Shown: positions 14,642-61,514 of the stretch, one piece after another | How the letters are laid out: each line of letters opens with the position of its first letter | How positions within the stretch are numbered: the stretch's first letter is position 1 | Assembly (NCBI RefSeq): GCF_900167415.1 | Contig: NZ_FUWU01000001.1 | Location: 62,001-126,000 of the forward strand | Length of the DNA stretch: 64,000 nt | From: Fibrobacter intestinalis | Lineage (GTDB): Bacteria > Fibrobacterota > Fibrobacteria > Fibrobacterales > Fibrobacteraceae | Direction of reading: 5' to 3' | The notes under the pieces: model-generated | The model's input: the letters and a program-made list of their open reading frames with translations, nothing else | Database searches by the model: none | What the model was told of the DNA's origin: nothing | Translations under genes and position numbers: made by a program

Positions 14642-15328
14642 ATGAAAAAATTTGCGGTTGTTCTTCCCGCTGGCGGACTGGGAAAGCGAATGGGGACTTC
14701 AATTCCTAAGCAGCTTTTGGATTTGGGCGGCAAGCCGGTTTACCGATATTCCTTGGAAACTTTTGCGTCCCTGCCTCAAATTACAGAAGTCGTTTTGGCG
14801 ATTCCCGCAGATTGGCAATCCCATTTTGAAAAAGATTTGCAGGATTTTTCGTTTGCTCAAAAACTCAAAATCGTTGTCGGCGGCAAAGAACGCTGGCAGT
14901 CGGTGCAAAACGGTATCGCCGCCCTTTCTCCCGAAGTGGAATTTGTGTTGGTTCACGATGTCGCGCGGCCCTTGATTTCCAAAGAGCTGATCGAGCAAGT
15001 TTTCAAAACTTTAGAAGATAAGGGAGCTTGCCTTGTCGCCCGCCCCTCAACGGACACAGTTAAAGTCGTCGAGAATGGAAAAGTAATTCGAACAATTCCC
15101 CGAGAAAAAATCTTTTTAGCGCAAACCCCGCAAGCAGCCGCAGTTTCCACATTCCGAGAACTTTATCAAAAAATGGAAAAGGAACCTCTTCACTTTGTTC
15201 CCACAGACGAAGCTTCCATTTTAGAACACTATTCTATTCCCGTCCACATTGTCCCGGGCAATTCTCTGAATGACAAATTGACGACTCTTTCCGACTTGGA
15301 AAAATTTCGAGCACTCTTAGGAAAATAA
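14642..15328 (+). CDS. ispD: 2-C-methyl-D-erythritol 4-phosphate cytidylyltransferase
   Basis: This enzyme makes CDP-methylerythritol in the non-mevalonate isoprenoid pathway. The 228-residue product has the nucleotidyltransferase signature LPAGGLGKRMG, then PKQLLDLGGKPV, the GGKERWQSVQNG loop, VHDVARPLIS and AQTPQAA, which together match IspD. The start at 14642 follows a GAGAGGTGGAT ribosome-binding region. A second, more TarI-like paralog is at 54395-55123, so this copy is the likely housekeeping one. The next gene starts 2 bp after its stop. Confidence 0.93.
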   Translation: MKKFAVVLPAGGLGKRMGTSIPKQLLDLGGKPVYRYSLETFASLPQITEVVLAIPADWQSHFEKDLQDFSFAQKLKIVVGGKERWQSVQNGIAALSPEVEFVLVHDVARPLISKELIEQVFKTLEDKGACLVARPSTDTVKVVENGKVIRTIPREKIFLAQTPQAAAVSTFRELYQKMEKEPLHFVPTDEASILEHYSIPVHIVPGNSLNDKLTTLSDLEKFRALLGK

Positions 15329-41487: not shown

Positions 41488-42933
41488 ATGGTTTCAAAGC
41501 AAACTATAATTTCTTCTCTCATTTGGAAATTTCTAGAACGAATAGGAACCCAGTTAGCGCAATTTGTCGTTTCCATAGTCCTCGCCCGTCTGCTTGCTCC
41601 TAATGATTTCGGTATTATCGCTCTTGTAATGATTGTCATTGCTATCGCCGATGTTTTTGTGCATAGCGGACTTAATACAGCGCTCATCCAAAAAAAAGAT
41701 GCCGACGAATTAGATTTTTCTTCCGTATTTTACGCAAGCATGGGCGTAGCAACAATCATTTATACAGGAATCTTTTTCACCTCTCCCTTTATCGCCGAGT
41801 TCTACGGGAAAACAGAATTGGTTCCCGTTATTCGCGTTCTTTCCTTGACACTATTTCTCGGTGTATTCAATTCTATTCAGGGAGCCTATATTTCCAAACA
41901 CATGCTTTTTAAAAAGCTGTTTTTAAGAAGTATCGGAGCCATGATTCCTTCTGGAATTTTAGGAATTGCGCTAGCCTTCTGCGGATTTGGAGTCTGGGCG
42001 CTCGTCGCCCAACAATTAAGCAACGTCTTTCTCGCCGTTATCATCATGTGGTTCACCATTCCTTGGCGTCCTCGGCTCCAATTTTCTTTTACAAGATTAA
42101 AAGGTTTATTTTCTTTCGGCTGGAAACTTCTTCTATCGTCATTGTTAGACACGCTTTACTCTAAGATGCGAGGATTAATCATTGGCAAAATTTTTACGCC
42201 CGCCGACCTCGCTTTCTACGATCGCGGAGATCGTTTTCCCTTTTTAGCGGTAAACAACATCAACAATTCAATCCAATCCGTCATGTTGCCATCTATTTCG
42301 GCAATCCAAGACGACAAATCACAAGTTAAAAGACTTATGCGAAGAGCCATCGTCACCAGCTCCTTTTTGATTATGCCGATAATGGCAGGACTTGCGGCGA
42401 CGGCAAAGCCCATCACACTAATCCTACTTGGCGAAAAATGGCTCCCCTGTGTCCCATTTATGCAGATCTATTGTTTCATTTACTGTTTTTATCCGATTCA
42501 CACTTCAAATCTTTCCGCCATCAACGCAATGGGGCGAAGCGACATCTTTTTAAAACTGGAAATCATCAAAAAAATTTTAGGCGTTTCTTTGATTTTAGCG
42601 TCCCTTTACATTTTTAGATCTCCGATAGGAATCGCCTACGGAACCCTGTGCAATACGCTGTGCTGTGCATTCATCAACGCTCACCCCAACAAAAAGTTAC
42701 TGAATTATGGCTATTTAGAACAAATCCGGGACATCCTTCCATCCTTTATTCTTGCCATTCTAATGGGCATCATTATCCATTTCATCGAATTTGCAGGATT
42801 CAATCTTTATTTAACGCTTGTTTTACAAATCTTAATCGGATTCGCTATTTATATGGGCGCCGCAAAACAATTACATTTAGAATGTTTAGAATATCTGATA
42901 GAAACCGTGAAAGGATTTAAATATGGAAGATAA
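41488..42933 (+). CDS. Oligosaccharide flippase (Wzx/WzxC-like, MOP superfamily)
   Basis: This 481-residue polytopic protein has about 12-14 hydrophobic helices. The opening SLIWKFLERIGTQLAQFVVSIVLARLLAPNDFGIIALV is the standard polysaccharide-flippase N-terminus, and ANFDYDR-type helix breaks are replaced by SKMRGLIIGKIFTPADLAFYDRG. It moves a lipid-linked oligosaccharide across the inner membrane. It is the first gene of the plus-strand half of the polysaccharide locus and overlaps the aminotransferase gene by 11 bp. Confidence 0.92.
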   Translation: MVSKQTIISSLIWKFLERIGTQLAQFVVSIVLARLLAPNDFGIIALVMIVIAIADVFVHSGLNTALIQKKDADELDFSSVFYASMGVATIIYTGIFFTSPFIAEFYGKTELVPVIRVLSLTLFLGVFNSIQGAYISKHMLFKKLFLRSIGAMIPSGILGIALAFCGFGVWALVAQQLSNVFLAVIIMWFTIPWRPRLQFSFTRLKGLFSFGWKLLLSSLLDTLYSKMRGLIIGKIFTPADLAFYDRGDRFPFLAVNNINNSIQSVMLPSISAIQDDKSQVKRLMRRAIVTSSFLIMPIMAGLAATAKPITLILLGEKWLPCVPFMQIYCFIYCFYPIHTSNLSAINAMGRSDIFLKLEIIKKILGVSLILASLYIFRSPIGIAYGTLCNTLCCAFINAHPNKKLLNYGYLEQIRDILPSFILAILMGIIIHFIEFAGFNLYLTLVLQILIGFAIYMGAAKQLHLECLEYLIETVKGFKYGR

Positions 42934-44032: not shown

Positions 44033-44036
44033 CAAT

Positions 44037-45485
44037 ATGACCCAAGACGAACTCATCAAAAAAATCAAAGACATCGAATGGGATGACTTTGAAGTAAAAG
44101 AAGCAGCAACGGCTCTTCCCAAAAACATTTGGGAAACCGTCAGTGCTTTCGCCAATACTTCCGGCGGATGGATTGTCTTAGGCGTAAAGCAAATGGGGAA
44201 AAAATTTAGCATCAGCGGCGTTCAAAATGGCGAAAAAATTGAATCGGATTTTTTGAACATTATTCGTAGCCGACAGAAATTAAATCAACTGATTGCCGTA
44301 AAATTGAAAAAATACAGAATTGGCAACAAACTAATCCTTGCATTCTATATTCCCTCGTCTCCATTTAAGCCGATTTATTTTTCTTCGGAGTACAACACGT
44401 TCATTCGAACAGGTAGCGGCGACCGGCGAGCTTCCGACTTTGAAATTACGGCCATGTTACGGGATCAAGCGTTTGGAACAAAAAGCGAACAGATTATCGA
44501 AGAATCTTCACTAAAAATGCTCAATCTTGATTCTCTGGAATCCTATTTAGAACATGTTAAAGCTTTTAATCCGGAATTTCCATATAGCAGATTGCCTACC
44601 GAAAAATTTTGTGAAAAGACGGGAATAAGCAAAAAAGGAAAACTGACTTATGGAGGCCTTCTCATGTTCGGCAAGCGAGACCCCATTCAATACCATGTCA
44701 ACAATTTTTGGATAGATATGCTGGAAATTCCAGGGAAAAATATGGGGGAAGCTGAACCCCGATATACTTTCCGGATGCCAGAACAAGAAAATATTTGGGA
44801 ATACTATAATGTCCTTATCCAACGTCTAAGAACACATATAGATGCCCCTTTTTCTACGGGACCAAATGGGTTTTCTCCTGACGACAATTCCCAATTATAC
44901 GCTTTACGAGAAGGCCTCATCAATATGCTCGCCCATGCAGACTATTTCACTCCAATGCATTCAACTATTCGCATATTCACAGATCGCATAGAATTTCAAA
45001 ACCCGGGGCGATTTCCATTCAATCTGAAAGATCTGCGCTCGCAAAACCATTCCATACCACGCAATCCAATTCTCATCAAATTATTCCGCTACGCCAAACT
45101 GTCTGAAAACGCCGGATACGGAATTGACAAGATGCTCTCTTGGGAAAAATTGACCCACAAAAAAGTCAAATTTAAAAGTGATTTTGTCCTTTCAACCATT
45201 ATATACTATCAAGTGTCTAAAAATTTTGCCGACAAATGGGATGAGCCTCTAAATGAGCCTCTAAATGAGCCTCTAAATGAGCCTCTAACTCATACAGCAA
45301 AAGAACTATTGAAAGCTATAAGAAACAATCCCAAAGCAACCAAAGAAGATTTCGCTAAACTGATTCAAAAATCACGTTCTACAATAACTCGGACAATCGC
45401 AAAACTCATAGAGCACAAACTTATCATGCGAACCGGATCGGACAAGAACGGTTTTTGGGAAATCATCCAGAACAGGAAATCTTAA
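44037..45485 (+). CDS. AlbA_2 (Schlafen-type)/HATPase_c_4 putative transcriptional regulator
   Basis: The 482-residue product has an N-terminal AlbA_2-like domain (DFEVKEAATALPKNIWETVSAFANT, GGWIVLGV). A degenerate GHKL ATPase-like part follows (LYALREGLINMLAHADYF, IRIFTDRIEFQNPGRFP), and a C-terminal winged helix ends it (KATKEDFAKLIQKSRSTITRTI). Members of this group are predicted DNA-binding regulators. Four 4-residue repeats EPLN precede the winged helix, encoded by a 12-bp tandem repeat. It sits between sugar-biosynthesis genes, where a regulator is unexpected. The ATG at 44037 is preferred over a TTG at 44019. Confidence 0.85.
   Translation: MTQDELIKKIKDIEWDDFEVKEAATALPKNIWETVSAFANTSGGWIVLGVKQMGKKFSISGVQNGEKIESDFLNIIRSRQKLNQLIAVKLKKYRIGNKLILAFYIPSSPFKPIYFSSEYNTFIRTGSGDRRASDFEITAMLRDQAFGTKSEQIIEESSLKMLNLDSLESYLEHVKAFNPEFPYSRLPTEKFCEKTGISKKGKLTYGGLLMFGKRDPIQYHVNNFWIDMLEIPGKNMGEAEPRYTFRMPEQENIWEYYNVLIQRLRTHIDAPFSTGPNGFSPDDNSQLYALREGLINMLAHADYFTPMHSTIRIFTDRIEFQNPGRFPFNLKDLRSQNHSIPRNPILIKLFRYAKLSENAGYGIDKMLSWEKLTHKKVKFKSDFVLSTIIYYQVSKNFADKWDEPLNEPLNEPLNEPLTHTAKELLKAIRNNPKATKEDFAKLIQKSRSTITRTIAKLIEHKLIMRTGSDKNGFWEIIQNRKS
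45243..45290 (+). repeat. 12-bp in-frame tandem repeat, four copies
   Basis: The unit GAGCCTCTAAAT occurs at 45243, 45255 and 45267 exactly, and at 45279 with one change. It encodes (Glu-Pro-Leu-Asn)x3 plus EPLT. Because the unit is a multiple of three, copy-number change would lengthen or shorten the linker before the winged helix without breaking the frame. Confidence 0.97.
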
Positions 45486-45488
45486 CCC

Positions 45489-46784
45489 ATGGCACACAAA
45501 AAAAACATCCTCGTATTTCCTTGCGGTTCAGAAATCGCTCTTGAAATCTATCGCAGCGTTAAGAATTCAGCGCATTTTAATTTGATCGGAGCCAGTTCAG
45601 TCGATGATCACGGGAAATTCGTATTTGAAAACTACATAGGAAATATCCCATTCATCACAGACAAGAATTTTATTAACGCCATCAAAAAGATTGTCAAAGA
45701 AAAACACATCGATGCCATTTACCCAGCGATGGACGCCGTTATCGAAATCTTGAAAAAAAATGAAAAAAGCCTCGGATGCAAAGTGATTTCTTCTAATTCG
45801 GAAACAACGCAAATTTGTCTTTCCAAAACAAAAACCTATCGAGTTCTAAAATCTTTCGTTCGAGTTCCAGAAATTTATTCCACAGAAAAACTCCGAGAAT
45901 CGCCCGACGTATTTCCCATTTTTGCAAAACCTGATATCGGTTACGGCAGTCGCGGAGCAAAAAAAATCTGTTCCGTTCTCGAAATGGAAACACACCTTGC
46001 CCAATATCCTTCTTGTATTTTGCTGGAATTTTTGCCCGGCGATGAATTTACCGTAGATTGCTTTTCCGACAAATCCGGAAATCTTCTTTTTGCTGCTCCA
46101 AGAAAACGTGGCCGTATCATGAACGGCATCAGCGTAAACACAAAAGCGGAAAAAGATGATTCGGAATTTCAAGCGTTTGCAAAAAAAATTAATGCGCAAA
46201 TAAAATTCCGCGGAGCCTGGTTTTTCCAAGTCAAACGGGACTCAAACGGGAAGCTCGCCTTACTAGAAGTTGCCAGCCGTTTCGGCGGATCTTCTTCACT
46301 GTTCCGTGCGCAAGGAGTCAATTTTGCCATGATGTCATTATTTGACGCCTTTGACATCCCGGTATCTGTTCTTCGCAACAATTACGCTGTTGAACTCGAT
46401 AGAGCTTTGGGCAATAGTTATCAAATAGATTTAAAATACAGCGAAGTCTTTGTAGATTTCGACGACTGCATTTACCTAGAAACAGCTTATGTAAACGATA
46501 CGTTGATGGCTTTCCTTTTTCGCTGCATCAACGCAGGTATTCGGATAACTCTGCTTTCTAAGCACGACGACGAAAAATTAGGTCCTCTAGACGATTTGTT
46601 GGATAACCTTCGGATTCGTCCAATCTTTGACCGAATCCTGCACATAAGACCCGATCAAAAAAAAGTAGATTTTATAGACAATATGGAAGCCATTTTTATT
46701 GACGATTCTTTTGCCGAGCGCAAAGCTATTGCAGAAAAATTCCACATCCCGGTATTTAGTATGGATATGGTGGAGATACTATGA
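45489..46784 (+). CDS. ATP-grasp ligase fused to a HAD-like domain
   Basis: This is a 431-residue two-domain enzyme. Residues 1-310 form a carbamoyl-phosphate-synthase/PylC-like ATP-grasp: NILVFPCGSEIALEIYRSV, IFAKPDIGYGSRGAKKI, ILLEFLPGDEFTVDCF, ALLEVASRFGGSS. Residues 318-431 look like a HAD hydrolase: motif I VFVDFDDCI (Asp323, Asp325), motif II LLSKHDD (Ser357), a Lys around 391 and motif IV FIDDS (Asp405, Asp406). The inference is a ligase that joins a carboxylate and an amine, coupled to a phosphatase-type domain. It directly precedes a cytidylyltransferase with a 4-bp overlap, pointing to a shared pathway for a polysaccharide substituent. Confidence 0.88.
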   Translation: MAHKKNILVFPCGSEIALEIYRSVKNSAHFNLIGASSVDDHGKFVFENYIGNIPFITDKNFINAIKKIVKEKHIDAIYPAMDAVIEILKKNEKSLGCKVISSNSETTQICLSKTKTYRVLKSFVRVPEIYSTEKLRESPDVFPIFAKPDIGYGSRGAKKICSVLEMETHLAQYPSCILLEFLPGDEFTVDCFSDKSGNLLFAAPRKRGRIMNGISVNTKAEKDDSEFQAFAKKINAQIKFRGAWFFQVKRDSNGKLALLEVASRFGGSSSLFRAQGVNFAMMSLFDAFDIPVSVLRNNYAVELDRALGNSYQIDLKYSEVFVDFDDCIYLETAYVNDTLMAFLFRCINAGIRITLLSKHDDEKLGPLDDLLDNLRIRPIFDRILHIRPDQKKVDFIDNMEAIFIDDSFAERKAIAEKFHIPVFSMDMVEIL

Positions 46785-47227
46785 TGATGTATAAAACAGG
46801 AATTACCGTTGGCGTTTTTGATTTATTTCATGTGGGTCATTTAAATTTATTAGAAAGCTGCAAAGCCATGTGCGATTATTTAATTGTTGCCGTTTGTTGC
46901 GACGAGTATGTGACAAAAATAAAGCACAAGCAGCCCGTTTATAATGAACAGGATCGGATTCGTCTTCTTTCGGCGTTAAAAGTTGTCGACAAAGTCGTCC
47001 CCGTAACCATTGAAGAAATAGAAAACAAATTACTTCTATTAAAAAAGCATCCTTTCGACTGTTTGTTTTCAGGGGATGATTGGAAGGGAAGTCCTCGTTA
47101 TCAAAAAACAGAAGAACAATTTGCCAAGTTGGGAGTGAGCATTGAGTATCTCCCTTACACAAAAGGCATTTCGACGACACAAATAAAAAATAAATTATTA
47201 GGACAGAAAAAAATGGAAGAGGTTTAA
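46781..47227 (+). CDS. Cytidylyltransferase-family protein (TagD-like), first copy
   Basis: The 148-residue product has the nucleotidyltransferase signature GVFDLFHVGHLNLLE (HxGH at 17-20), the FSGDDWKGSPRY segment and the ISTTQIK terminal motif. It activates a phospho-alcohol with CTP. It is more diverged from TagD than the copy at 47975 (MCDYLIVAVCCDEYVTKIK) and could use a different alcohol. It is followed one base later by a LicD gene, forming the first activation-transfer module. Confidence 0.85.
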   Translation: MMMYKTGITVGVFDLFHVGHLNLLESCKAMCDYLIVAVCCDEYVTKIKHKQPVYNEQDRIRLLSALKVVDKVVPVTIEEIENKLLLLKKHPFDCLFSGDDWKGSPRYQKTEEQFAKLGVSIEYLPYTKGISTTQIKNKLLGQKKMEEV

Positions 47228-47228
47228 T

Positions 47229-47978
47229 ATGATTTCTTTTGACATTAAACGCGTTCAAGAAAGACTTCTTAAAATGGCAAAAGAAATCGCCAGTATTCTT
47301 GAAGACCACGATATTCCTTATCAAATAGCATTCGGTACGCTTCTCGGAGCTGTACGTCACAAAGGATTCATTCCATGGGACGACGATTTTGATTTTTTCC
47401 TTTTCGACGACTCCTATGAAAAAGCTATGGAGGTTCTTCAAAAAAACATCTCGCAAAATATGTTCCTAGAAAATGAAAAGACAGAAGCGCATTTTTTTCA
47501 TGGATGGGCCCGCATAAAAGACACCCAAAGCGATTGCCAATACGACCTCTATCCTCAAGACAAATCGTATTTACATCACGGGCTCTGCGTAGATTTATTC
47601 AGAATCAAAAAAATGCATGGAAAGGATTTTGCCGACTTTCGTTTCAACGAAGCAATGAATTACATTAAACGTCGAAAAAAGTTAGGTCTTATTTCAGACG
47701 AAGAATTTATAACACGGCAAAAAAAGTTTGAAGAGTGCTTCGAAAAAGACAAGACCAATTCTACCAAAGAAATTCTCGCCTATCCTTTCGACATTGGCAA
47801 ACAATATCCCGAAGATGTTTTTCCGCTCAAAAAATACAAGTTTGAAGACACCACATTTTTCGGACCCCAAAATGCAGACAACATTCTGGCAATGCGATAC
47901 GGCGACTACAGAAAACTGCCACCAGAAAGCGAACGGCACCCGCATTACAGCCAGGTAATATTTAAGGAGAACGAATGA
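47229..47978 (+). CDS. LicD-family phosphotransferase, first copy
   Basis: The 249-residue product has the hallmark [23 protein letters not shown] near residues 35-54, and a C-terminal [19 protein letters not shown]. LicD proteins transfer phosphocholine or other alcohol phosphates from CDP-linked donors to glycans. The TagD-like gene just upstream is its likely donor maker. The next TagD gene overlaps its stop (ATGA). Confidence 0.92.
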
Positions 47979-48370
47979 AACGGATTATCACTTATGGAAC
48001 ATTCGATTTACTTCATTACGGGCACATCAATCTTCTCCGTAGAGCGAAAGCCCTTGGCGATTATCTAATCGTAGCTCTATCTACAGATGAATTCAATTGG
48101 AACCAAAAGCAGAAAAAATGTTATTTCTGTTATGAAAAACGCAAACAGCTTCTAGAAGCGATTCGCTATGTGGATTTAGTCATCCCCGAAGAGAACTGGG
48201 AGCAAAAAAAAACAGACGTCAAAGAATACCACATTGACACCTTTGTAATGGGTGATGATTGGAATGGCAAATTTGATTTTTTAAAAGAACAATGCGAGGT
48301 CGTCTATCTGGGACGCACTCCAGAGATCAGTACAACGCAAATCAAAAAAGATCTGGAGAAAAATACATGA
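47975..48370 (+). CDS. tagD: Glycerol-3-phosphate cytidylyltransferase, TagD type
   Basis: This 131-residue enzyme makes CDP-glycerol from glycerol 3-phosphate. [20 protein letters not shown] (HxGH at 14-17), [14 protein letters not shown], the [15 protein letters not shown] block, [15 protein letters not shown] and ISTTQIK match TagD closely in sequence and length. CDP-glycerol could feed the CDP-glycerol transferase at 55120 as well as the adjacent LicD. Confidence 0.93.
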
Positions 48371-49281
48371 CAGAAGCAGAACGCCTTATCCAAGATGGAT
48401 TATTTTCAGACGATTATTTTAAAGAAGAAACTCGAAATGATTTTAAAATTTCGTCAAAAACAAAAAAAATCTGGGCAATCGAATTAGAAATGCTCCTTAC
48501 CCTGGACAAAGTCTGCCGCAAACATCATCTGAAATATTTCTTGCTCTTCGGAACGCTTCTAGGGGCCGTGCGTCACCATGGATTTATCCCTTGGGATGAC
48601 GATGTCGATGTCGGAATGTTCCGAGACGACTACGAAAAACTTCTCCTTTTAAAAGACGAATTTCCTGCTCCGATTTTTTTGCAGAACCACAAAACGGATC
48701 CGGAATGTTTTATGTCCTATTCGCGCTTGAGAAACTCCAATACGACCGCGATTTCTAAAAAGCTAAGATTTCAAAAAATGAATCACGGTATTTTTCTCGA
48801 TATTTTCCCATTGGACAATTTACTTCAAAATGAATCTTCCGAACGCTACGAAAAAATAAACGCTCTCAATATTGACAACGGAACATTCATGAAAATGTCC
48901 AACCCCAATCTTTCCGGAAGAGATCTGCTTTTGTCAAAAGACTACAAAAGACAAAATAAAGATCCCGAAAAAACGCTAGAGGAAATTCACCTCTTGGCGA
49001 CTTTGCAAAACGCCAAACCCATGGAATACATTTGCAATCTTGTTTGTACTCTTTCGCCACTACGAACTAAAAGATGGAACGCTGAATGGTTTTCAAAAAC
49101 GATACCATTTGAAATCGACGGTTTTAAGTTTTCGGGACCTGTAGGCTATAAAGAAATTCTGACAATGAACTACGGCGACTATATGAAATTTCCGCCTTTA
49201 GAAGAGCGGCAAGCACATCCTCATTATCTTTTTGACCCAGACAAATCTTACTTGGATTTCCAACCTCAAGACATAGAGTAA
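48367..49281 (+). CDS. LicD-family phosphotransferase, second copy
   Basis: The 304-residue product has [36 protein letters not shown] and [21 protein letters not shown], the standard LicD blocks, with a longer middle than the first copy. It overlaps tagD by ATGA and forms the second activation-transfer module. The ATG at 48367 is preferred over the upstream in-frame start within tagD. Confidence 0.92.
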
Positions 49282-51328: not shown

Positions 51329-52459
51329 ATGAAAAAATGGAATTATCTTATTGTAGGTTCAGGACTTTTTGGTGCAACTTTCGCTTACCGAGCTACGAAA
51401 TTAGGTAAAAAATGCCTAGTAATTGATAAACGTCCGCATTTAGGCGGAAATATCTACTGCGAAAATATGGAAGGAATCAATGTGCACAAATATGGTGCCC
51501 ATATTTTTCACACATCCAACAAGCAAGTTTGGGATTTTGTCAATTCCTTTGTCAAATTTAACCGCTACACAAATTCACCGATTGCAAATTATAAGAATAA
51601 ACTTTATAATTTGCCATTTAATATGAATACATTTTATCAAATGTGGGGAGTACAAACCCCTGCAGAAGCTTTTGCCAAAATAGAAGCGCAAAAAGCGGAA
51701 GCTCTTAAATTTATCGGTAATCGTAGTCCAAAAAATTTAGAAGAACAAGCACTCTTACTCGTTGGTAAAGATATTTTTGAAAAGCTCATTAAAGAATATA
51801 CAGAAAAACAATGGGGAAGAAATTGCAAAAATTTACCGGCGTTCATTATCAAGCGATTACCGCTTCGTTTTACATTTGATAATAATTATTTCAACGATAA
51901 CTACCAAGGGATTCCTATCGGAGGATACAACAAATTAATAACAGGTTTGTTATCTGGCATAGAATGTCAAACAAGCGTGAATTTTTTTGACAGCTATAAA
52001 GACAATTGGAAAAATTTGGCAGAAAAACTCGTTTATACAGGTCCGCTAGATGAATATTTTGCATACAAATTAGGAAGACTTAATTGGCGTTCAATTAAAT
52101 TAAAATGTCGTATAGAAAATGTTCCGAATTTCCAAGGAAATGCCGTAGTAAATTATACATCTCATGACAAACCGTTTACTCGAATTATTGAGCACAAGCA
52201 TTTTGAAATGTTTGGGCAAACCATTTATGACATCCCCAAAACTATAATTTCTGAAGAATATTCCTTAGAGTACAAAAATGATGGAGAAATGGAGCCATAT
52301 TATCCTGTTAATGATGGATACAACAATAAACTGGCGGAAGAATATCGAACATTAGCGAAAAAAGAAGAAAATGTCATTTTTGGAGGCAGGCTTGCAGAAT
52401 ACAAGTATTATGATATGGCTCCAATTATTGATCAAGTAATGAATTTGCAAAATATTTAA
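51329..52459 (+). CDS. glf: UDP-galactopyranose mutase
   Basis: This FAD enzyme interconverts UDP-Galp and UDP-Galf. In its 376 residues the FAD-binding GSGLFGATFAYRA, VIDKRPHLGGNIY, VHKYGAHIFHTSN, the TEKQWGR block and the C-terminal GGRLAEYKYYDM motif are all present. The visible coding bias is more AT-rich than in the housekeeping genes. It predicts galactofuranose in the polysaccharide. Confidence 0.96.
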   Translation: MKKWNYLIVGSGLFGATFAYRATKLGKKCLVIDKRPHLGGNIYCENMEGINVHKYGAHIFHTSNKQVWDFVNSFVKFNRYTNSPIANYKNKLYNLPFNMNTFYQMWGVQTPAEAFAKIEAQKAEALKFIGNRSPKNLEEQALLLVGKDIFEKLIKEYTEKQWGRNCKNLPAFIIKRLPLRFTFDNNYFNDNYQGIPIGGYNKLITGLLSGIECQTSVNFFDSYKDNWKNLAEKLVYTGPLDEYFAYKLGRLNWRSIKLKCRIENVPNFQGNAVVNYTSHDKPFTRIIEHKHFEMFGQTIYDIPKTIISEEYSLEYKNDGEMEPYYPVNDGYNNKLAEEYRTLAKKEENVIFGGRLAEYKYYDMAPIIDQVMNLQNI

Positions 52460-52470
52460 ATTTATTCAAT

Positions 52471-53328
52471 ATGACGAGTACAAATATAAAAATCCTAGTC
52501 TGTTGCCATAAAGCAGACATTAAAGCCTCTCAAGAACCATATTTGCCCATACATGTAGGTAAAGCTCTTTCGAATCAAGAACTATGCATTCAAGCAGACA
52601 ACGAAGGAGACAACATCAGTCACAAAAACCCAAGTTATTGCGAATTGACCGGAATGTATTGGGCCTGGAAAAATCTCAAAAACGTTGATATTATTGGTCT
52701 CTGTCACTATCGTCGATATTTTGATTTTCACAATCAATGTAGGAAGAGTTTTCCTCAAACCATTGTTTCTTCGGAAAATTTTGACAAAATCAATCTTTCA
52801 ATCCCTCAAGACATCATAGAAAAAATACAAAAAGGTTTTGTCGTTACGGCAAAGCCATACCCTCATTGGAGATTTCTTGTTGATGAATACTGCTTTAATC
52901 ACGTTAGCGATGATTTGCGAGTTTTAGAATCCATTTTAAAAACTTCTCAACCCCAAGAAATAAAAGACGCTTATTTTAAAATCATGTATCAAAGCCATTC
53001 TTTGCGGCATTACAATATGTTTTTAATGAATTGGAAAGAATTTAACGACTATAGCACTTGGCTTTTTGACATCCTTCAAAAAGTAGAAGCCCAAACAGAC
53101 ATAGAACATTATAATCCGGTTCAAAAACGAATTTACGGTTATCTCGCAGAACGACTTTTAAATGTATGGATTGAGGCGTATCATAAACCGATTATAGAAA
53201 AGCCTATCATTTGGTTTTCTAATTCAGCAGACATTTTTAGCCACTATAGTTACCTAAAATTTAAATTTCGTTGTTGGATCAACGACTTCGCTTTTTGGCT
53301 AATTAAACCAAGAAAAGCTATTTTTTGA
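52471..53328 (+). CDS. DUF4422 glycosyltransferase-like protein
   Basis: This 285-residue protein is common in capsule and exopolysaccharide loci. ILVCCHKADIKASQEPYLPIHVG, YCELTGMYWAWKN, IIGLCHYRRYFDF and YNMFLMNWKEFNDYS are the family blocks. The activity is probably sugar transfer, sometimes of Galf, which would fit the adjacent glf gene. Its 3' end overlaps the convergent SDR gene by 11 bp. Confidence 0.88.
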   Translation: MTSTNIKILVCCHKADIKASQEPYLPIHVGKALSNQELCIQADNEGDNISHKNPSYCELTGMYWAWKNLKNVDIIGLCHYRRYFDFHNQCRKSFPQTIVSSENFDKINLSIPQDIIEKIQKGFVVTAKPYPHWRFLVDEYCFNHVSDDLRVLESILKTSQPQEIKDAYFKIMYQSHSLRHYNMFLMNWKEFNDYSTWLFDILQKVEAQTDIEHYNPVQKRIYGYLAERLLNVWIEAYHKPIIEKPIIWFSNSADIFSHYSYLKFKFRCWINDFAFWLIKPRKAIF

Positions 53329-54385
53329 TTTTCATACTTTCAATCATTCTGCCAAACATATCATACAAACCAAAATTTGCACTCCAGCCCAAGGCTTTAA
53401 GCTTTGTCGTATTCAAGCATATTTTCATACACGGATTATAGCCAAGTTTTGTAGCGTCATCAGCAATATCAAAAACTACATGACTTTTGCCATCAGAAAA
53501 ATTTTTACAGACAAATTCCGCCATGTCAGCAATACTAATAGCGGTATCTTCGTTTGCAACATTGTAGGCTTCACCTATTTCTCCCTTTGCAAGAATCAGC
53601 AACAAGGCAATTACGGCATCGGCCACATAGCAATAGTTACGCAAGGTTTCTCCCTTCGTCTTTAGAACAATGTCTTTGCTTTCAATGGCACTTCGTGCAA
53701 ACTGCGCAAAAACACGTCCATCATCGTACGCAACGCCGGTACCAAAAGTTTGAGTTAAGCGAGCGATCTTTACAGGAACATTATATTCCGAAGCGTAGGA
53801 ACAGCAAAGGCATTCTACCATACGTTTGCCTTCAGAATAGCTGCTTCGAACCTGAAGGAAATCTATATAGCCGCTATAAGTTTCAGAAATATCTACGATG
53901 CCTTTTTCAGGAGTGCCATACACTTCCAAAGAGGACAGATAAAGAAATCCATCCAAATTCATTGTGGAAGATTTTTCTAAAATTCGATTCGTCCCCATAA
54001 TTGCAGTACGGATTGTTTCCACAGGTTTGGTAACAAAGTCCTTGGAGCTGGTAACGCTGGCAGTATGGATGATATAATTCAAATTTTCTGGAAATTCGTA
54101 ATTACTATTAACATCTCCACAAATCAATTGAAAATTTTCTCTTGATTCAAAGCCGTTAAAAATAGTACGAGCTTTCTGCAAGTTACGGACCATTGCATAA
54201 ATTTTTATGTTCGTTCCATAAAGACGGTTTCGCCACGCCAAGGATTTTACAATCTGGGAGCCTATAAGGCCTGTAGCGCCCGTTACCAGAATGGACTTAT
54301 TCCGAAATAAATCCCAAGGAACCATTTTGGAACTGGCAATAAATTCCAAATCTTCCTGAAGTAATGTATCAAAGGATTCCGGCAT
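53318..54385 (-). CDS. Extended SDR (nucleotide-sugar epimerase/dehydratase-like)
   Basis: The 355-residue product has NAD-binding GATGLIGSQIV, HTASVTSS, a YLSSLEVYG strand and the YSEGKRMVE catalytic Tyr-Lys pair, followed by RLTQTFGTG. It resembles extended short-chain dehydrogenases that act on nucleotide sugars. In some capsule loci such an SDR follows a TarI-like gene, but it is not the ribulose-phosphate reductase TarJ. It is the last gene of the minus-strand half, 9 bp after the cytidylyltransferase. Confidence 0.9.
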   Translation of the reverse strand: MPESFDTLLQEDLEFIASSKMVPWDLFRNKSILVTGATGLIGSQIVKSLAWRNRLYGTNIKIYAMVRNLQKARTIFNGFESRENFQLICGDVNSNYEFPENLNYIIHTASVTSSKDFVTKPVETIRTAIMGTNRILEKSSTMNLDGFLYLSSLEVYGTPEKGIVDISETYSGYIDFLQVRSSYSEGKRMVECLCCSYASEYNVPVKIARLTQTFGTGVAYDDGRVFAQFARSAIESKDIVLKTKGETLRNYCYVADAVIALLLILAKGEIGEAYNVANEDTAISIADMAEFVCKNFSDGKSHVVFDIADDATKLGYNPCMKICLNTTKLKALGWSANFGLYDMFGRMIESMKIKK

Positions 54386-54394
54386 ACCAAAAGC

Positions 54395-55123
54395 CTAAAT
54401 TCCAAATACTTGAGAATTGAGTTTCACTTCGTAAATCGCCTTGAACAGGAAAAAGTCCATGGGCGTAGTAATCTTGATATTTTCCGCAGGGCCATCCACC
54501 ATGTGAAGAGAATAGCCGTAATGTTTCATAAGACATGCGGAATCAATCATATTCACAACACCTTCTGCACGAGCCCTTTCATGGGCGTTCCAAATATTCT
54601 TCATCCAAAAACTTTGGGGAGCCCTAGCCAAATGACAGCAATTTCTGTTATAGATGCTCTGAACCTCAAAATTCTCATTCGACGTTATTACGGTTTCAAT
54701 AGCGGGAGCAACCGTAATAGCAGAGCCAAATTGTTCAACACAATCAATATTATCCGTAATGACTTTTTCCGAAATAAGAGGACGGACGCCATCGTGAATC
54801 AAAATTGAATATTCGTCTGGAAACTGAACTTCATCGTGAATAGCCTTCAAACCATTGTATATGGATTCCTGACCTGTAGATCCACCGGGTACAACCCAGC
54901 GAACCTTTGAAATAGAAAATCTTGCCAGAAGGCTTTTCAAATAGGAAATCCAGGATTCCAAGCAAACGACACAGATGGATTCAATTCCGGGATGTTTTTC
55001 AAAATGTCCCAATGTATGGATAATAACGGCGCGTCCATCCAATTCCAAGAACTGTTTTGGACGAGCGGAGTTATTCATTCTAGTGCCGGTTCCGCCGGCA
55101 AAAATAAGAGCGACATTTTTCAT
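54395..55123 (-). CDS. TarI/IspD-family cytidylyltransferase (ribitol-type)
   Basis: The 242-residue product has ALIFAGGTGTRMNNSARPKQFLELDGRAVII, VCLESWISYL, WVVPGGSTGQESIYNGL and LIHDGVRPLIS. The GGTGTRMNNS and PGGxTGQxSIYNGL forms are closer to D-ribitol-5-phosphate cytidylyltransferases (TarI) than to IspD, and a separate ispD is present at 14642. It would make a CDP-polyol donor. The start overlaps the glycerophosphotransferase stop (ATGA). Confidence 0.85.
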   Translation of the reverse strand: MKNVALIFAGGTGTRMNNSARPKQFLELDGRAVIIHTLGHFEKHPGIESICVVCLESWISYLKSLLARFSISKVRWVVPGGSTGQESIYNGLKAIHDEVQFPDEYSILIHDGVRPLISEKVITDNIDCVEQFGSAITVAPAIETVITSNENFEVQSIYNRNCCHLARAPQSFWMKNIWNAHERARAEGVVNMIDSACLMKHYGYSLHMVDGPAENIKITTPMDFFLFKAIYEVKLNSQVFGI

Positions 55124-56316
55124 CCGATAACCACCTTGCATTTTTCGCAGATTTTTTGATAAGTATTTTCGCTATAGCAAGTTCCTGCAATAGAAGGATC
55201 TTCAAAAATTTCATTCAACAAATTTGCCTGAGAAATATTCCCTGTCAATAATAACGCTACAAGTTCCTCCACATTCCGAGCCTTTTCCTGCACAACTTTC
55301 GAATAGGCATCATTTAACGATGAATAGGAAAGATACTTTTCTTCATCAGGGACAAAAAATACAATAGGGCGTTTTAACAAAGCATAATCAACGCAACAGC
55401 TCGAATAATCCGTAACCAAGCAATCAGCAGCCATCAACAAATGCTGAACCGACAATACATCCTTATCTCCAAGAATTTTTAAATTTAGAATGGCTGTATC
55501 CATTTTAAACTTCGTCAAAGGATGAAGCTTTACAAGAAACAAAACCCCATTTTGCTTCAAGTAATTCAGAAAAGTTTCATCAACGGTCAAATCTTCTAAA
55601 ATTTTTTTCACTACATCCTGACCGTTTTGGGGATTCACCCGATAGGTCGGCATATAAAGAACGACCTTCTTGAACGATTTATCCAACACCCCTTTAAGAA
55701 CTTCTTTCTGGTTCACACCAATATGAAATAAATCATTTCGAGGTTGCCCAGTAATCATAATGGAACTTCGCTTTACATTAAACTGTTCCATCGTTCTTTG
55801 AGCCGTATATTCAGATGTGGCCAAAGAGAAATCTCGATGAACCCAGCTATAGAACCCATCCACAAGCTTCTTAATAACAAGGGAACATCCCAAATAATTT
55901 TCATTATAAATTTTTTTGAAACCGCCTACACCATGCCAAAGGGCAATGATTTTCGCGCCACCAATCAGCGGAATTGGGCTAAAGTCATCAATGCCGTTGG
56001 TCATGATGGCAACTCCACCCCTTAACATCCAAAAAATTCCCTTTAAGGAAGTCGAAGTATAACATTCATACCCAAGGGCTCTTACCTGGTCCACCACCTC
56101 AATATTTCGGGTAATCCAGATGCAACGAATTTCGGGATGATTTTTACAGACATGTTCAAAAAGGAACTTGGAGTTATCATCATACTTTTTGCCAATCCAG
56201 CAAGCAAAAAGCCACACCCGTTTAGTGCGGAATGGATGCAGCCTTAAAAGATAAAATACGACACAAACAAAGGGCAACGAAAATTTTCGCCACTCCAGCA
56301 TTTTAGAAAACTTCAT
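55120..56316 (-). CDS. CDP-glycerol:glycerophosphate glycerophosphotransferase-like enzyme
   Basis: The 398-residue product has an N-terminal hydrophobic, membrane-associated segment. LWHGVGGFKKIY, ATSEYTAQRTMEQFNV, ITGQPRNDLF, YMPTYRVNPQNG, KLHPLTKF, LVTDYSSCCVDYALLKRPIVFF and PDEEKYLS match the TagB/TagF family of teichoic-acid enzymes. It transfers a CDP-linked polyol phosphate to a glycan or polymer. The ATG at 56316 avoids overlap with the upstream gene; a TTG at 56355 is less likely. Confidence 0.93.
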   Translation of the reverse strand: MKFSKMLEWRKFSLPFVCVVFYLLRLHPFRTKRVWLFACWIGKKYDDNSKFLFEHVCKNHPEIRCIWITRNIEVVDQVRALGYECYTSTSLKGIFWMLRGGVAIMTNGIDDFSPIPLIGGAKIIALWHGVGGFKKIYNENYLGCSLVIKKLVDGFYSWVHRDFSLATSEYTAQRTMEQFNVKRSSIMITGQPRNDLFHIGVNQKEVLKGVLDKSFKKVVLYMPTYRVNPQNGQDVVKKILEDLTVDETFLNYLKQNGVLFLVKLHPLTKFKMDTAILNLKILGDKDVLSVQHLLMAADCLVTDYSSCCVDYALLKRPIVFFVPDEEKYLSYSSLNDAYSKVVQEKARNVEELVALLLTGNISQANLLNEIFEDPSIAGTCYSENTYQKICEKCKVVIG

Positions 56317-56342: not shown

Positions 56343-57167
56343 TCACCGGTCCCAACGAATCTTCGCAACACGTTTATTATGGCCTATACGGGCACTACGT
56401 TTAGAAAACAAGACGAGCATCCATACCGGAATCATGAGATACACCAACTTTTTTATAAGATGAAAGTTTCCAATATCCTTCCGACAAAACTTCTTCCAAA
56501 AATAGGATCCCACAACGTTTTCAAGTACTGGATTTTCTGAACCGGAATCACGCCAACTACCAAGACCATTATGGACGCACACGTTATGACCATCAAAAAC
56601 ATTGATGGTAAAATAGGAGTCCGGATAAATCGTCATATCTGAAAATTCCAACGGTTTACCATCAAAGTTAACTAGCGGGCCATCATACTTGTAGTTATTC
56701 ATAAACACTTTGGTGATAATGCAAGGCATTGCATTCGTATCACAAGATCCATCCGGCAAAATAAAGTGCCTATCTTTATAGTATTCCAAGCATCGCCTTA
56801 AAAAAGGGTGACCCGCTTCGGCTCCAATGACGTGAGCGGCAATTTGATCCGTGAACTCCGTACCGATAAAAAGTTTTTTTTCGAGGAACTTATCAAAATT
56901 ATCATTAACGGTAACATCGGCGTCCAAATAAATACCGCCAAATTTTTCAAGCACCCAAAGCCTAAAGTAATCTGTTACAAAAGCCCACTTTTTTTTGGAG
57001 AAGGCTTCCTTAGCAAAAAGAAATTCACTGTATGGGAAATTCGTCGAATTCCATTCCATAATTTCATAATCGTTCAGGTGCTTCTTCCAAGAAGCCAGAC
57101 AGCGTTCCACCGCAGGAGTTTTGGTTTCCGATATCCAAAGATAATGAATTTTCTTAGGAATAGACAT
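56343..57167 (-). CDS. GT32-family glycosyltransferase
   Basis: The 274-residue product has IPKKIHYLWIS at the start, FVTDYFRLWVLEKFGGIYLDADVTV with the DXD site, and GAEAGHPFLRRCLEYY. This is the capsular/Och1-like GT32 pattern. A basic, hydrophobic C-terminal segment (KKLVYLMIPVWMLVLFSKR) suggests membrane attachment. It sits between two other transferases in the minus half. Confidence 0.92.
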   Translation of the reverse strand: MSIPKKIHYLWISETKTPAVERCLASWKKHLNDYEIMEWNSTNFPYSEFLFAKEAFSKKKWAFVTDYFRLWVLEKFGGIYLDADVTVNDNFDKFLEKKLFIGTEFTDQIAAHVIGAEAGHPFLRRCLEYYKDRHFILPDGSCDTNAMPCIITKVFMNNYKYDGPLVNFDGKPLEFSDMTIYPDSYFTINVFDGHNVCVHNGLGSWRDSGSENPVLENVVGSYFWKKFCRKDIGNFHLIKKLVYLMIPVWMLVLFSKRSARIGHNKRVAKIRWDR

Positions 57168-58079
57168 CTAAATACCCCACAATACTTTATAGAACTTTCG
57201 GGTATTTTTGAAAATATAAGGAGACAGCCATTGAACACTAATCATAATCTTTAACAAAAAAGCCGCCATGGGGGAAAGATTTTTTTTAGCGTAACGCACC
57301 CGAGATATTTCGGATTGGATAATCGAAAAAGAACCATATCTAATAACATCATCGACCCGCTTGCCTCCACCACGAATTAGGTGTTGAATTTTGGGACCCT
57401 CCACAATCATACTCACTTTTCCTTTCTTACGTAAACGCCATTGCATATCTGTTTCTTCAAAATACAGAAAAAAACTTTCATCGTAACGAGCATTTTCATC
57501 ATTGGTCATAAACAAATCCGCGCCTGTCACATAATCAACTTCACCAAAACGTTGTTTGTAAACAGGAACCGGACGTAGCTTGCTAATGTCTTTGTGAAAA
57601 AATTTCATCACGTTTTTTACATAAAACGCTATCATATGACGAAACATGGCTTTCACCATTTTTTTTGATTGAGGAAACGATCCGTAAGATTCTGTCGGCT
57701 TGCCATCAGCATCCACCAAATTACAACCTATGGCACCAACATTTTTGGGAAGTTTTGTCCAACAGTCAAAAAAAATCTTAACTGCGTTATTCAAAAGCAG
57801 TGTATCGCTGTTCAAGTAAAAAACGCACTTCCCCTTTGCCACGTCAAGACCTCGATTATTGCCTTTTCCAAAGCCCAAGTTCTCTTTATTCTCCACAAGA
57901 TATACTTGCGGAAATTCATTCCGCACCATTTCAACAGAACCGTCTTTAGAGCCGTTATCAGAGACAATTACTTCAAATTCTAAATTTTGCGTTTGCTCGT
58001 AAATGGATTGCAGGCAATTCCGTAAAAGAGCTTTTGTGTTAAAACTGACTATGATAATAGATACTGGAATACGGTTCAT
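57168..58079 (-). CDS. GT2-family glycosyltransferase (rhamnosyltransferase-like)
   Basis: The 303-residue product has SIIIVSFNTKALLRNCLQSI, VIVSDNGSKDGSVEMV, GFGKGNNRGLDVAKGK and FYLNSDTLLL, typical of GT2 enzymes that transfer rhamnose or galactofuranose. A C-terminal hydrophobic part may contact the membrane. It is overlapped by ATGA with the polymerase-like gene upstream. Confidence 0.92.
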   Translation of the reverse strand: MNRIPVSIIIVSFNTKALLRNCLQSIYEQTQNLEFEVIVSDNGSKDGSVEMVRNEFPQVYLVENKENLGFGKGNNRGLDVAKGKCVFYLNSDTLLLNNAVKIFFDCWTKLPKNVGAIGCNLVDADGKPTESYGSFPQSKKMVKAMFRHMIAFYVKNVMKFFHKDISKLRPVPVYKQRFGEVDYVTGADLFMTNDENARYDESFFLYFEETDMQWRLRKKGKVSMIVEGPKIQHLIRGGGKRVDDVIRYGSFSIIQSEISRVRYAKKNLSPMAAFLLKIMISVQWLSPYIFKNTRKFYKVLWGI

Positions 58080-59371
58080 TGCAGACTTTCCTCCTCATCA
58101 TCTTCTTCCCATTCGCCTTGCGTCTGCAATCGGATATATTCCGCATATTCTTCTTCCAATTCGTCTTGACGATTAAATTTACTTTGGATATGGCCCAAAC
58201 AAAACCAATACATAAACGGCTGCAAAGTTCCCAATTCCCACGTTGCCGCTCCAAGCATCGAAACAAGCGCAAACAAAATGCAAACAACTTCAAAAAGACA
58301 ATACTTAAACAGAGCAATACCCTTTTGCAAAGAATTAAGACAAATAAACATCAGCAAAGCCAACCCCAAAAAGCCAAGTTCAGCAGGAACCCGAACATAA
58401 TCACAATCGGGAATAGTGGGAAATCCTTCTGCAAAGGCACCGTGCCCATAACGCCCCAAACCTTTTCCAAATAAAGAAAGATGATAAAAAAAATCCTCAA
58501 AAAGTTTAAAACGATCCCCAACCATATTGCCATCATAATTTACAGAACGATTCAACACATACTCTACAAAATCCGGGCCCAAGATAATAACAGCAATAAT
58601 CCCCATCGCAATTCCTAGAACAATAGACGTCATCCACAAAAGGTATAAGATCCGCCGATTTTCCAATTTATTTATCGACGCATAAATCGTTAAAACTATC
58701 AAATACAAAACCGCAAAAGCAATGGACACCCGCTGTTGAGCAAAGAACAAGCAAAAAAAACTGACCAACAGACAAGCTACATCTAAATGAGACGAAATTC
58801 CGTCCACAATAATTTTTTTAGAGCAAAGAACTAACAAAAAAAGGGAAGAATACCCAATAAAATAAGAATGCGGCCAAAAAGAAGAAAGACGGGATATTTC
58901 ATACAGCAGATGCCCAGAAGCACTGATCGTATCTATATTCATTGAATTCCACAATACGCTGGACTTGTAGGACAGATAAAAGGACGGCATTGTAAAGTAA
59001 AACAAAATCCCGCAAGCCATGGCAAATAATAACGGTTTTCTGATATTGAAAAAAAAATCATCATTTTGAAATTCTTCGCTGCGCGCAAAAAAGTAAAAAC
59101 AGATCGGAATTATTTCAGCTCGAAAACCCAAATAAAATAATCGAAACGGATACGCATTTAGTAATCCTGTCATCAAGCAATAAAAAACATAGATAATAAC
59201 AATGCCATCCAAAAAATTAAACTGGATTTTATTAAAACAAAAAAGAAAAGCTAAAACAGTTATAACAATCAACCCTGATGATGTATCTCGAAATCCAAAC
59301 ATCAAACTCGCTGCTATTACAACAAGAAACCAGTAATAATGGGAAATAGCACCAATTAAAAATTTTCCCAA
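58076..59371 (-). CDS. O-antigen polymerase/ligase-like membrane protein (Wzy type)
   Basis: This 431-residue polytopic protein has about eleven hydrophobic helices and a large extracytoplasmic loop (ILGPDFVEYVLNRSVNYDGN to GKGLGRYGHGAF), as in Wzy/WaaL proteins. The sequence is otherwise weakly conserved, as expected for the family. It ends in an acidic tail (EEDDEEES). It would polymerise or attach the repeat unit moved by the flippase at 41488. Confidence 0.82.
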   Translation of the reverse strand: MGKFLIGAISHYYWFLVVIAASLMFGFRDTSSGLIVITVLAFLFCFNKIQFNFLDGIVIIYVFYCLMTGLLNAYPFRLFYLGFRAEIIPICFYFFARSEEFQNDDFFFNIRKPLLFAMACGILFYFTMPSFYLSYKSSVLWNSMNIDTISASGHLLYEISRLSSFWPHSYFIGYSSLFLLVLCSKKIIVDGISSHLDVACLLVSFFCLFFAQQRVSIAFAVLYLIVLTIYASINKLENRRILYLLWMTSIVLGIAMGIIAVIILGPDFVEYVLNRSVNYDGNMVGDRFKLFEDFFYHLSLFGKGLGRYGHGAFAEGFPTIPDCDYVRVPAELGFLGLALLMFICLNSLQKGIALFKYCLFEVVCILFALVSMLGAATWELGTLQPFMYWFCLGHIQSKFNRQDELEEEYAEYIRLQTQGEWEEDDEEESLQ

Positions 59372-59390: not shown

Positions 59391-60137
59391 TCAATGTTGA
59401 TTTCTGTATTTCCACAATAATTTTAAAAATCGCCAATCACGCAGGAAATATCTTTTAAACATCCGTATCGGTTCCTGCTTTAAACGAAACAGCCATTCCA
59501 AACCATGATTTGACATCCACTGTGGAGCTCGTTTCTGTTTTCCCGCCAAAAAATCCAAACTGGCACCAACCCCTATGCTCAACGGGATTTTCCAACGATC
59601 TTTATTCTTTACGATAAAAAGTTCTTGTTTTGGGCAGCCGAGCGCAACAACCAAAATATCTGGGCGAGCATCCTTCAAGCGTTGATCAATGTTTTCCATC
59701 TGCTGCAAATCATTCTCAAAACCAATCTCCGGGGAATAGTGTCCAACAATTTGCAATTCAGGAAACATCACTTTCAAATTTTGAGACGCTTTCCGAGCGA
59801 CACCATCTTCCCCGCCCAAAAAGAATATTCTATATCCTTTTTGAGCCGCTAGTTCGCAAAGTTTTGGCAAAAAATCCGAACCTGAAATTTTTTCTTTAAT
59901 CGGAGCACCATAAAATCTGGAAAACCAAACAAGAGGCATCCCATCAGCCAACACGAGATCGGCTTGAGCATAGGCTTCTTGTAATTCGCGATTTTTTTCA
60001 AGAATCACAAGATGATCCACATTTGGCGTTGTTATAAAAGACATTTTCCCTTGGCGAATCAGCCCATCTGCAGCTAACAAGGCCTCATCCATAGTAAGGT
60101 TATCTATGGACACATTGAGAAAATGAACCTTCTTCAT
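59391..60137 (-). CDS. WecG/TagA/CpsF-family glycosyltransferase (GT26)
   Basis: The 248-residue product has TPNVDHLVILEKNRELQEAY, ADLVLADGMPLVW, the ISGSDFLPKLCELA block, FFLGGEDGVARKAS and VALGCPKQELFI plus IGVGASLDFLAGKQKRAP, the complete GT26 pattern. Such enzymes add ManNAcA or ManNAc to an undecaprenyl-linked GlcNAc, an early step in surface-polymer assembly. It follows UDP-glucose dehydrogenase, which can supply a uronic acid precursor. Confidence 0.95.
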   Translation of the reverse strand: MKKVHFLNVSIDNLTMDEALLAADGLIRQGKMSFITTPNVDHLVILEKNRELQEAYAQADLVLADGMPLVWFSRFYGAPIKEKISGSDFLPKLCELAAQKGYRIFFLGGEDGVARKASQNLKVMFPELQIVGHYSPEIGFENDLQQMENIDQRLKDARPDILVVALGCPKQELFIVKNKDRWKIPLSIGVGASLDFLAGKQKRAPQWMSNHGLEWLFRLKQEPIRMFKRYFLRDWRFLKLLWKYRNQH

Positions 60138-61514
60138 CTAATCCACCAGACCTTTTCCAACATTGGCGACATCAAACCCAATATCGCGAAGTGCAGCCGC
60201 ATCCAAGATATTGCGTCCGTCATAAACAAAAGCCGGTTTTGCCATGCCTTTATAGATTCGCTTCCAGTCGAGTTCCGCAAAGCATTTCCATTCAGTGCAA
60301 ACCACAACAGCGTGTGCGCCTTCAGCCGCTTTATACGGGTCCTCTTCAAATTCCACTTTGTCCAAGACATCCGCCAAATCCCGTTTGGCATCGGGAATTG
60401 CCTTAGGATCGGTTACAATCGGTAAGGCATGTTCGGCGAGCAAATCTCGCACGACCAGATTCGCAGGGCTCTCTCGAGTGTCTCCCGTATTCGCCTTGAA
60501 CGCAAATCCGAATACAGCAATTTTTTTGCCAGCAATCGTATTGAACATCCGTTCGAGCATACAGCCGAGAACCCGATGCGTTTGCCATTCGTTGATTTTT
60601 ACAACGCTTTCCCAATAGGCGGCAACTTCCGGAAGACCGTAATAAGAACACAGATAGACAAGATTCAGAATGTCTTTCTTAAAACAGCTTCCGCCAAAAC
60701 CGATCGAAGCTTTGAGGAATTTGCTTCCTATGCGGTGATCCTTCCCCATCACATAAGCGACTTCGTCCACGTCGGCTCCGGTCTTTTCGCAAAGCGCGCT
60801 AATCGAGTTGATGGAACTGATCCGCTGGGCAAGGAACGCGTTCGCCGTGAGTTTCGTCAGTTCCGAACTCCAAAGATTCGTTGTCAGAATGCGTTCCCGC
60901 GGAACCCAATGCGCATAAATATCGACAACTTTCTGAAGAGCTGCAAGGCCTGACTTGGTTTGGTGGCTGCCGATGAGTACGCGATCCGGTTCAAACAAAT
61001 CTTTAATGGCAGATCCTTCCGCCAAAAATTCCGGATTGGAAAGCACTTCAAAATGAAGTCCCTTGTCATTGGAATTCAAAATGCGTTCCATGGCGGCAGC
61101 CGTTCGTACCGGCAGCGTGGATTTTTCAACGATAATCTTGTCGTTGGAAGCGACGTCCAAAATTTCCCGTGCAGTTTTTTCCCAATACTGCAAATCACTC
61201 GCTTTTCCTGCACCCCGACCAAAAGTCTTTGTCGGCGTATTCACGCTCACAAAAATAATGTCGGCTTCCCGCACCGCATTCGGAATATCCGTGCTGAAAA
61301 ATAAATTCCGACCACGAGTCCGTTTGACGACTTCATCCAAGCCGGGTTCAAAGATGGGAAGATTTTCACTGTTCCAAGCATCGATTCGCTTTTGATTGAT
61401 GTCCACAACCGTCACTTTAACGTCGGGGCATTTATCGGCAATTACAGTCATTGTCGGACCGCCGACATATCCGGCGCCGATACACAAAACATGGGTTTGA
61501 AAATGAGTAGGCAT
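60138..61514 (-). CDS. ugd: UDP-glucose 6-dehydrogenase
   Basis: This enzyme oxidises UDP-glucose to UDP-glucuronate. In its 458 residues there is GAGYVGGPTMTVIA (NAD site, 13-18), SVNTPTKTFG, NPEFLAEGSAI, the catalytic GFGGSCFKKD (Cys277) and the FGFAFKANTGDTRESPA segment. The length and KTFGRGAGKASDLQYWE insert are closer to the animal/plant form than to the shorter bacterial Ugd. It is the first gene of the minus-strand half of the locus. Confidence 0.95.
   Translation of the reverse strand: MPTHFQTHVLCIGAGYVGGPTMTVIADKCPDVKVTVVDINQKRIDAWNSENLPIFEPGLDEVVKRTRGRNLFFSTDIPNAVREADIIFVSVNTPTKTFGRGAGKASDLQYWEKTAREILDVASNDKIIVEKSTLPVRTAAAMERILNSNDKGLHFEVLSNPEFLAEGSAIKDLFEPDRVLIGSHQTKSGLAALQKVVDIYAHWVPRERILTTNLWSSELTKLTANAFLAQRISSINSISALCEKTGADVDEVAYVMGKDHRIGSKFLKASIGFGGSCFKKDILNLVYLCSYYGLPEVAAYWESVVKINEWQTHRVLGCMLERMFNTIAGKKIAVFGFAFKANTGDTRESPANLVVRDLLAEHALPIVTDPKAIPDAKRDLADVLDKVEFEEDPYKAAEGAHAVVVCTEWKCFAELDWKRIYKGMAKPAFVYDGRNILDAAALRDIGFDVANVGKGLVD

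Follow-up and report, generated by a model that had tools for sequence, protein, structure and literature searches.

The window analysed here is a stretch of 64,000 nucleotides from Fibrobacter intestinalis (contig NZ_FUWU01000001.1, positions 62,001 to 126,000). Three adjacent genes on its minus strand very probably produce a sugar alcohol in activated form and transfer it, as a phosphate, to a polysaccharide of the cell surface. They encode a single-domain TagB/TagF-family polyol-phosphate transferase of 398 amino acids (55120..56316; PF04464, E 5.6e-47), an IspD-family cytidylyltransferase of predicted D-fructose-6-phosphate (ketose-phosphate) type (54395..55123; PF01128, E 4e-43) and an extended short-chain dehydrogenase/reductase (SDR), a predicted cytidine diphosphate (CDP)-ketohexose reductase of the CDP-6-D-glucitol or CDP-mannitol synthase type (53318..54385; PF01370, E 2.2e-37). 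The activated polyol is more likely a six-carbon compound, glucitol or mannitol, than ribitol. We put the probability at about 0.6 that the cytidylyltransferase and the SDR catalyse the two successive steps of a CDP-polyol pathway like those of HS5.18/HS5.17 and Mnp1/Mnp2, from which the TagF-like enzyme transfers a hexitol-phosphate.

In the proposed pathway the cytidylyltransferase would join a ketose phosphate and cytidine triphosphate; with D-fructose-6-phosphate, the most likely substrate, the product would be CDP-6-D-fructose. The SDR would then reduce the open-chain keto group of this compound with NADPH, to CDP-D-glucitol or CDP-D-mannitol depending on the stereochemistry at C2. The TagF-family enzyme would place the hexitol-phosphate on a growing lipid-linked repeat unit, the presumed acceptor, and Wzx/Wzy-type proteins would flip and polymerise this unit into the final glycan. 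Glycerol-phosphate would probably come from a different pair, TagD and LicD (47975-49281).

The CDP-6-D-glucitol pathway of Campylobacter jejuni HS:5, consisting of the cytidylyltransferase HS5.18 and the reductase HS5.17, was published in 2024 in a paper whose authors predicted the SDR/cytidylyltransferase pair for over 200 organisms (PMC10918830). As cited there, the CDP-D-mannitol pathway of Streptococcus pneumoniae 35A uses Mnp1/Mnp2, which by its description is the same type of pair in a Gram-positive host. In C. jejuni HS:5, a Gram-negative organism, genes of the same two families are neighbours within a surface-glycan cluster, and our locus is a further case of this pathway type, not a new system. 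Unlike in HS:5, the transferase that goes with the pair is a TagF-family protein of a single domain, encoded within a Wzx/Wzy-type cluster. The original prediction, that an organism with a Gram-negative-type genome uses CDP-polyol chemistry to build a polyol-phosphate glycan, is supported. Its further statement, that this happens outside the usual hosts, was too strong, given the more than 200 organisms and the TagF-like polyol-phosphate capsules known from Gram-negative bacteria (PMC5974469).

The predicted reductase and its partner gene

The best Protein Data Bank (PDB) match of the SDR by sequence was 8V4G/8V4H (E 1e-43), followed by UDP-glucuronate decarboxylase as the next family (E 3e-28). 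The same entries came first in the Foldseek search (E 1.9e-29, template modelling scores 0.85/0.91; next protein E 5.7e-24). Both represent HS5.17, the CDP-6-D-glucitol synthase of C. jejuni HS:5 (PMC10918830). For residue mapping, 17 HS5.17 residues were used, namely the side-chain contacts named in PMC10918830 minus Asn34, plus Met139 and one neighbour; the numbering of that paper agreed at 18 of 18 positions checked. Fifteen of the 17 are identical in the window SDR (as listed: Arg67, Lys71, Thr112, Ser114, Glu154, Arg180, Tyr183, Lys187, Leu210, Thr211, Gln212, Arg224, Thr243, Arg249 and Tyr316). Those surrounding glucitol in HS5.17 (Glu140, Arg164, Thr195, Gln196 and Arg208) are kept. The two changes are Met139 to Leu and Asp212 to Gln, the latter at a position where members of the SDR family have D, E or Q. 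The YxxxK feature of a reductase and predicted contacts to CDP, NADP and glucitol can be recognised in the sequence. Further likeness is provided by the AlphaFold model of the window SDR (predicted local distance difference test score 94), in which a helix at 7-17 precedes the first strand; in HS5.17 the N-terminal helix before the Rossmann fold was described as atypical (PMC10918830). In a plasmid collection nothing closer was found than SDRs about 30% identical to HS5.17.

The GTDB species genomes were scanned with the SDR motif only, ignoring neighbouring genes. At least 574 relatives were detected, of which the best 80 were kept; those among the matches listed stem mostly from gut Lachnospiraceae, Oscillospiraceae, Eubacterium and oral streptococci. 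An IspD-family gene was present on the fetched stretch in 72 of the 80, within 1.5 kb of the SDR in 70, and for 67 of the 72 the nearest such gene shared the strand of the SDR and lay upstream of it. TagF- or LicD-family genes were found within 3.5 kb of the SDR in 66/80. The closest named relatives among the matches listed are Fibrobacter genomes from horse faeces (L049 and L050). L049 keeps the order WecG, Wzy-like, GT2, GT32, TagF-like, IspD-like and SDR, with protein identities of 56-84%.

Among 61 Fibrobacterota genomes the cytidylyltransferase (E<1e-30) occurs in 14, all of which also hold the SDR (within ~1.5 kb in 12 genomes, at 3 kb in another and at 7 kb in the last). The pair has a scattered distribution across the genus, in keeping with the variability of surface-glycan genes. 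A second pair subfamily was observed in this phylum (G003, G021 and G058; L045 11158-12927, L046 9366-11094, L047 18146-19791). Its SDR carries RPxH instead of RLxQ, its cytidylyltransferases form their own clade (100/100), and it presumably serves a different polyol.

Placement of the cytidylyltransferase

The product of 54395..55123 had been taken for a TarI-like, ribitol-activating enzyme. This identity did not hold: sequence identity amounts to 32-35% with four TarI proteins of known structure, 34% with Bacillus subtilis IspD and 40-81% with most SDR-linked enzymes. In a maximum-likelihood tree the SDR-linked enzymes, including that of the window, form one clade (97/97), outside both TarI (100/99) and IspD (97/96). 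Grouping the window protein alone with TarI was rejected by the approximately unbiased (AU) test (p 0.006). Moreover, at 14 positions where all six TarI rows agree, the window clade shows another residue, likewise conserved. The adjacent partner gene is an extended SDR, an observation that concerns this locus and not a genome-wide search for TarJ.

An identity as IspD of the methylerythritol phosphate pathway was likewise not upheld, given the tree position and a score of 164 bits with the IspD equivalog TIGR00453, under its cut-off of 181.3. Genome profile searches (3.29 Mb, 99.95% complete) revealed only two PF01128 genes, this one and the housekeeping ispD (14642..15328, plus strand, ATG at 14642), which scores 205.6 bits with TIGR00453. 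The earlier view that a separate ispD exists and that the second IspD-family gene is not needed for isoprenoids is thereby supported.

With NF001183, 'D-ribitol-5-phosphate cytidylyltransferase', the window enzyme scores 180 bits against 328 and 353 bits for the true TarIs in two Firmicutes loci (L101 and L120), and a member of the window clade from Streptococcus sanguinis scores above the cut-offs of the ribitol and IspD models alike. Judged from these scores, the 'ribitol' label is a threshold effect. In L101 and L120 the true TarI lies within ~2 kb of an SDR-linked pair, so that both enzyme types occur in one locus, which is consistent with different products. These TarI-type genes (L101 8945-9673, L120 9028-9747) have no adjacent TarJ and stand beside leuC/leuD-like genes.

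Alternative substrates and roles

Several observations weigh against a hexitol pathway. The window SDR and HS5.17 share just 35% identity, and the dinucleotide contact Asn34 of HS5.17 is a Thr. The cytidylyltransferase does pass the NF001183 cut-off of 166 bits. Placing the whole subclade of the window beside TarI was disfavoured by the AU test at p 0.059, above rejection, and the branches to the tree outgroups are long. In addition, the tree and the comparison set cover TarI, IspD and SDR-linked enzymes other than the characterised HS5.18, Mnp1/Mnp2 and pneumococcal CDP-arabinitol enzymes. Since the characterised pentitol enzymes lie outside the comparison, the main rival is the same two-step route acting on a pentulose phosphate and leading to CDP-D-arabinitol or another pentitol. 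Pneumococcal Abp1/Abp2 are reported to make CDP-D-arabinitol from D-xylulose-5-phosphate, the enzyme classes and gene pairing are the same, the chain length of the substrate is not readable with certainty from sequence, and the existence of the RPxH subfamily suggests that the family may well differ in substrate. We nevertheless consider a pentitol doubtful: the window SDR keeps Gln196 and Glu140, the contacts to the C3', C4' and C5' hydroxyls of glucitol (a comparison outside which the Abp sequences lie), and HS5.17 is its top match in both sequence and fold.

A ribitol route, with a TarI-like enzyme acting on ribitol-5-phosphate and the SDR substituting for TarJ, is highly unlikely. TarI structures are the top PDB matches of the cytidylyltransferase and the ribitol model is passed, but only marginally when compared with true TarIs; the separate clade, the 14 differing positions, the relation of the SDR to a CDP-ketose reductase and the loci holding both enzymes argue against ribitol. 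Harder still to credit is an accidental neighbourhood, with the SDR acting as a common epimerase or dehydratase of nucleotide sugars, such as one of the UDP-xylose synthase kind. UDP-glucuronate decarboxylase is indeed the second-best PDB family, and the top NCBIfam match is dTDP-glucose 4,6-dehydratase, though at 94 bits versus a cut-off of 365. However, the pairing with an IspD-family gene in 70 of the 80 relatives is at odds with accident, and the SDR has Leu-Glu, which resembles the Met-Glu of the reductase, where dehydratases have their catalytic Asp/Glu or Asp/Lys pair.

The glycan cluster, its origin and its meaning

The TagF-like, IspD-family and SDR genes form the end of an eight-gene minus-strand run from 61514 to 53318. 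As the original prediction had it, the three lie end to end: the start of the IspD-family gene overlaps the stop of the TagF-like gene, directly upstream, in an ATGA, and 9 bases separate its own stop from the SDR start. The run begins with a UDP-sugar dehydrogenase of the UDP-glucose/GDP-mannose dehydrogenase family (60138..61514; PF03721, PF00984, PF03720), a WecG/TagA/CpsF-family glycosyltransferase (59391..60137; PF03808, E 5.8e-63) and a Wzy-like membrane protein (58076..59371). The latter, a putative repeat-unit polymerase, gave no Pfam match, is hydrophobic by eye and is 56% identical to its counterpart in the same place in L049. A GT2 glycosyltransferase (57168..58079; PF00535) and a GT32-type glycosyltransferase with a DXD sugar-binding region (56343..57167; PF04488/PF05704; same order in L049 and G031) complete the run. 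In the TagF-family protein, the only PF04464 member encoded in the genome, the two catalytic histidines of TagF are conserved, as seen in alignment to Staphylococcus epidermidis TagF (3L7I, chain positions 444 and 584). TagF-like capsule polymerases from Gram-negative pathogens share the transfer of polyol-phosphate in a surface glycan and combine glycosyltransferase and phosphotransferase in one protein (PMC5974469); the window protein, in contrast, has PF04464 alone and the glycosyltransferases are separate.

The plus-strand half of the cluster (~40.2-53.3 kb) includes a Wzx-type flippase (41488..42933; PF13440, E 1.4e-102), two TagD-like and LicD pairs and a UDP-galactopyranose mutase (51329..52459; PF03275, E 3.7e-71), besides other genes. 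The presence of a TagD on this strand had been noted before and is confirmed by the glycerol-3-phosphate cytidylyltransferase at 47975..48370 (TIGR01518, 211.6 bits, cut-off 165.4; 1COZ, E 1.8e-59), which is followed by a LicD-family phosphotransferase (48364..49281; PF04991, E 8e-40). The other pair consists of a weaker TagD-like nucleotidyltransferase of uncertain substrate (46781..47227; TIGR01518, 90 bits) and a LicD-family phosphotransferase (47229..47978; PF04991, E 3.8e-28); these two LicD genes are the only ones in the genome. The closest PDB entries of this first TagD-like protein are ethanolamine-phosphate and glycerol-3-phosphate cytidylyltransferases, and its gene comes after an ATP-grasp gene (45489-46784) whose product bears an additional domain at the C-terminus. 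The 90-bit score and this neighbour suggest that it may activate a different phospho-alcohol, although its sequence is too divergent for an assignment. A putative ATP-binding, transcription-regulator-like gene (44019-45485, plus strand) inside the cluster carries a short repeat in frame, NEPLNEPLNEPL, towards the C-terminal end of its product. At the cluster edge lies a CotH-kinase-family gene (40201-41472, plus strand), and a 38% identical gene was found near the same operon in L049 (9530-10912).

LpxC is present in the genome, while PF03816 (LytR-CpsA-Psr), the would-be ligase attaching the polymer to peptidoglycan, is absent genome-wide. By this gene inventory, the predicted product is a surface glycan of a diderm cell, as opposed to a wall teichoic acid anchored to peptidoglycan. 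The TarI/TarJ system of wall teichoic acid shares with the window an IspD-family cytidylyltransferase feeding a TagF/TarL-type transferase; the window differs in its enzyme lying outside the TarI clade, in an extended SDR as reductase and in the missing LytR-CpsA-Psr protein.

The G+C content is 37.9% at 44.0-60.1 kb versus 45.6% in the first 40 kb. TagD (47975-48370) is 79-83% identical to TagD of three Roseburia loci (L085, L105 and L126) that also hold the SDR pair. Such identity is high across phyla and suggests a recent gene transfer of TagD; the cluster was likely exchanged with gut Firmicutes, in either direction.

It is unlikely, although conceivable, that the substrate of the pair in this clade is a ketose phosphate new to this pathway and that the glycan bears two different polyol phosphates, one placed by the TagF-like enzyme and a glycerol-phosphate placed by LicD. 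If true, this would make the glycan an envelope polymer so far undescribed in Fibrobacterota. Our literature searches yielded no usable report of a polyol in the Fibrobacter envelope. For annotation, a correction is called for: genes of the window clade pass the NCBI ribitol model and one close relative also the IspD model, so automatic annotation will label the clade as 'ribitol' or 'isoprenoid' enzymes. For the Fibrobacteraceae, which are cellulose degraders of the herbivore gut, these results indicate a glycan route of the hexitol-phosphate type, and they provide a concrete prediction, that glucitol or mannitol would be found in the surface glycan of Fibrobacter.

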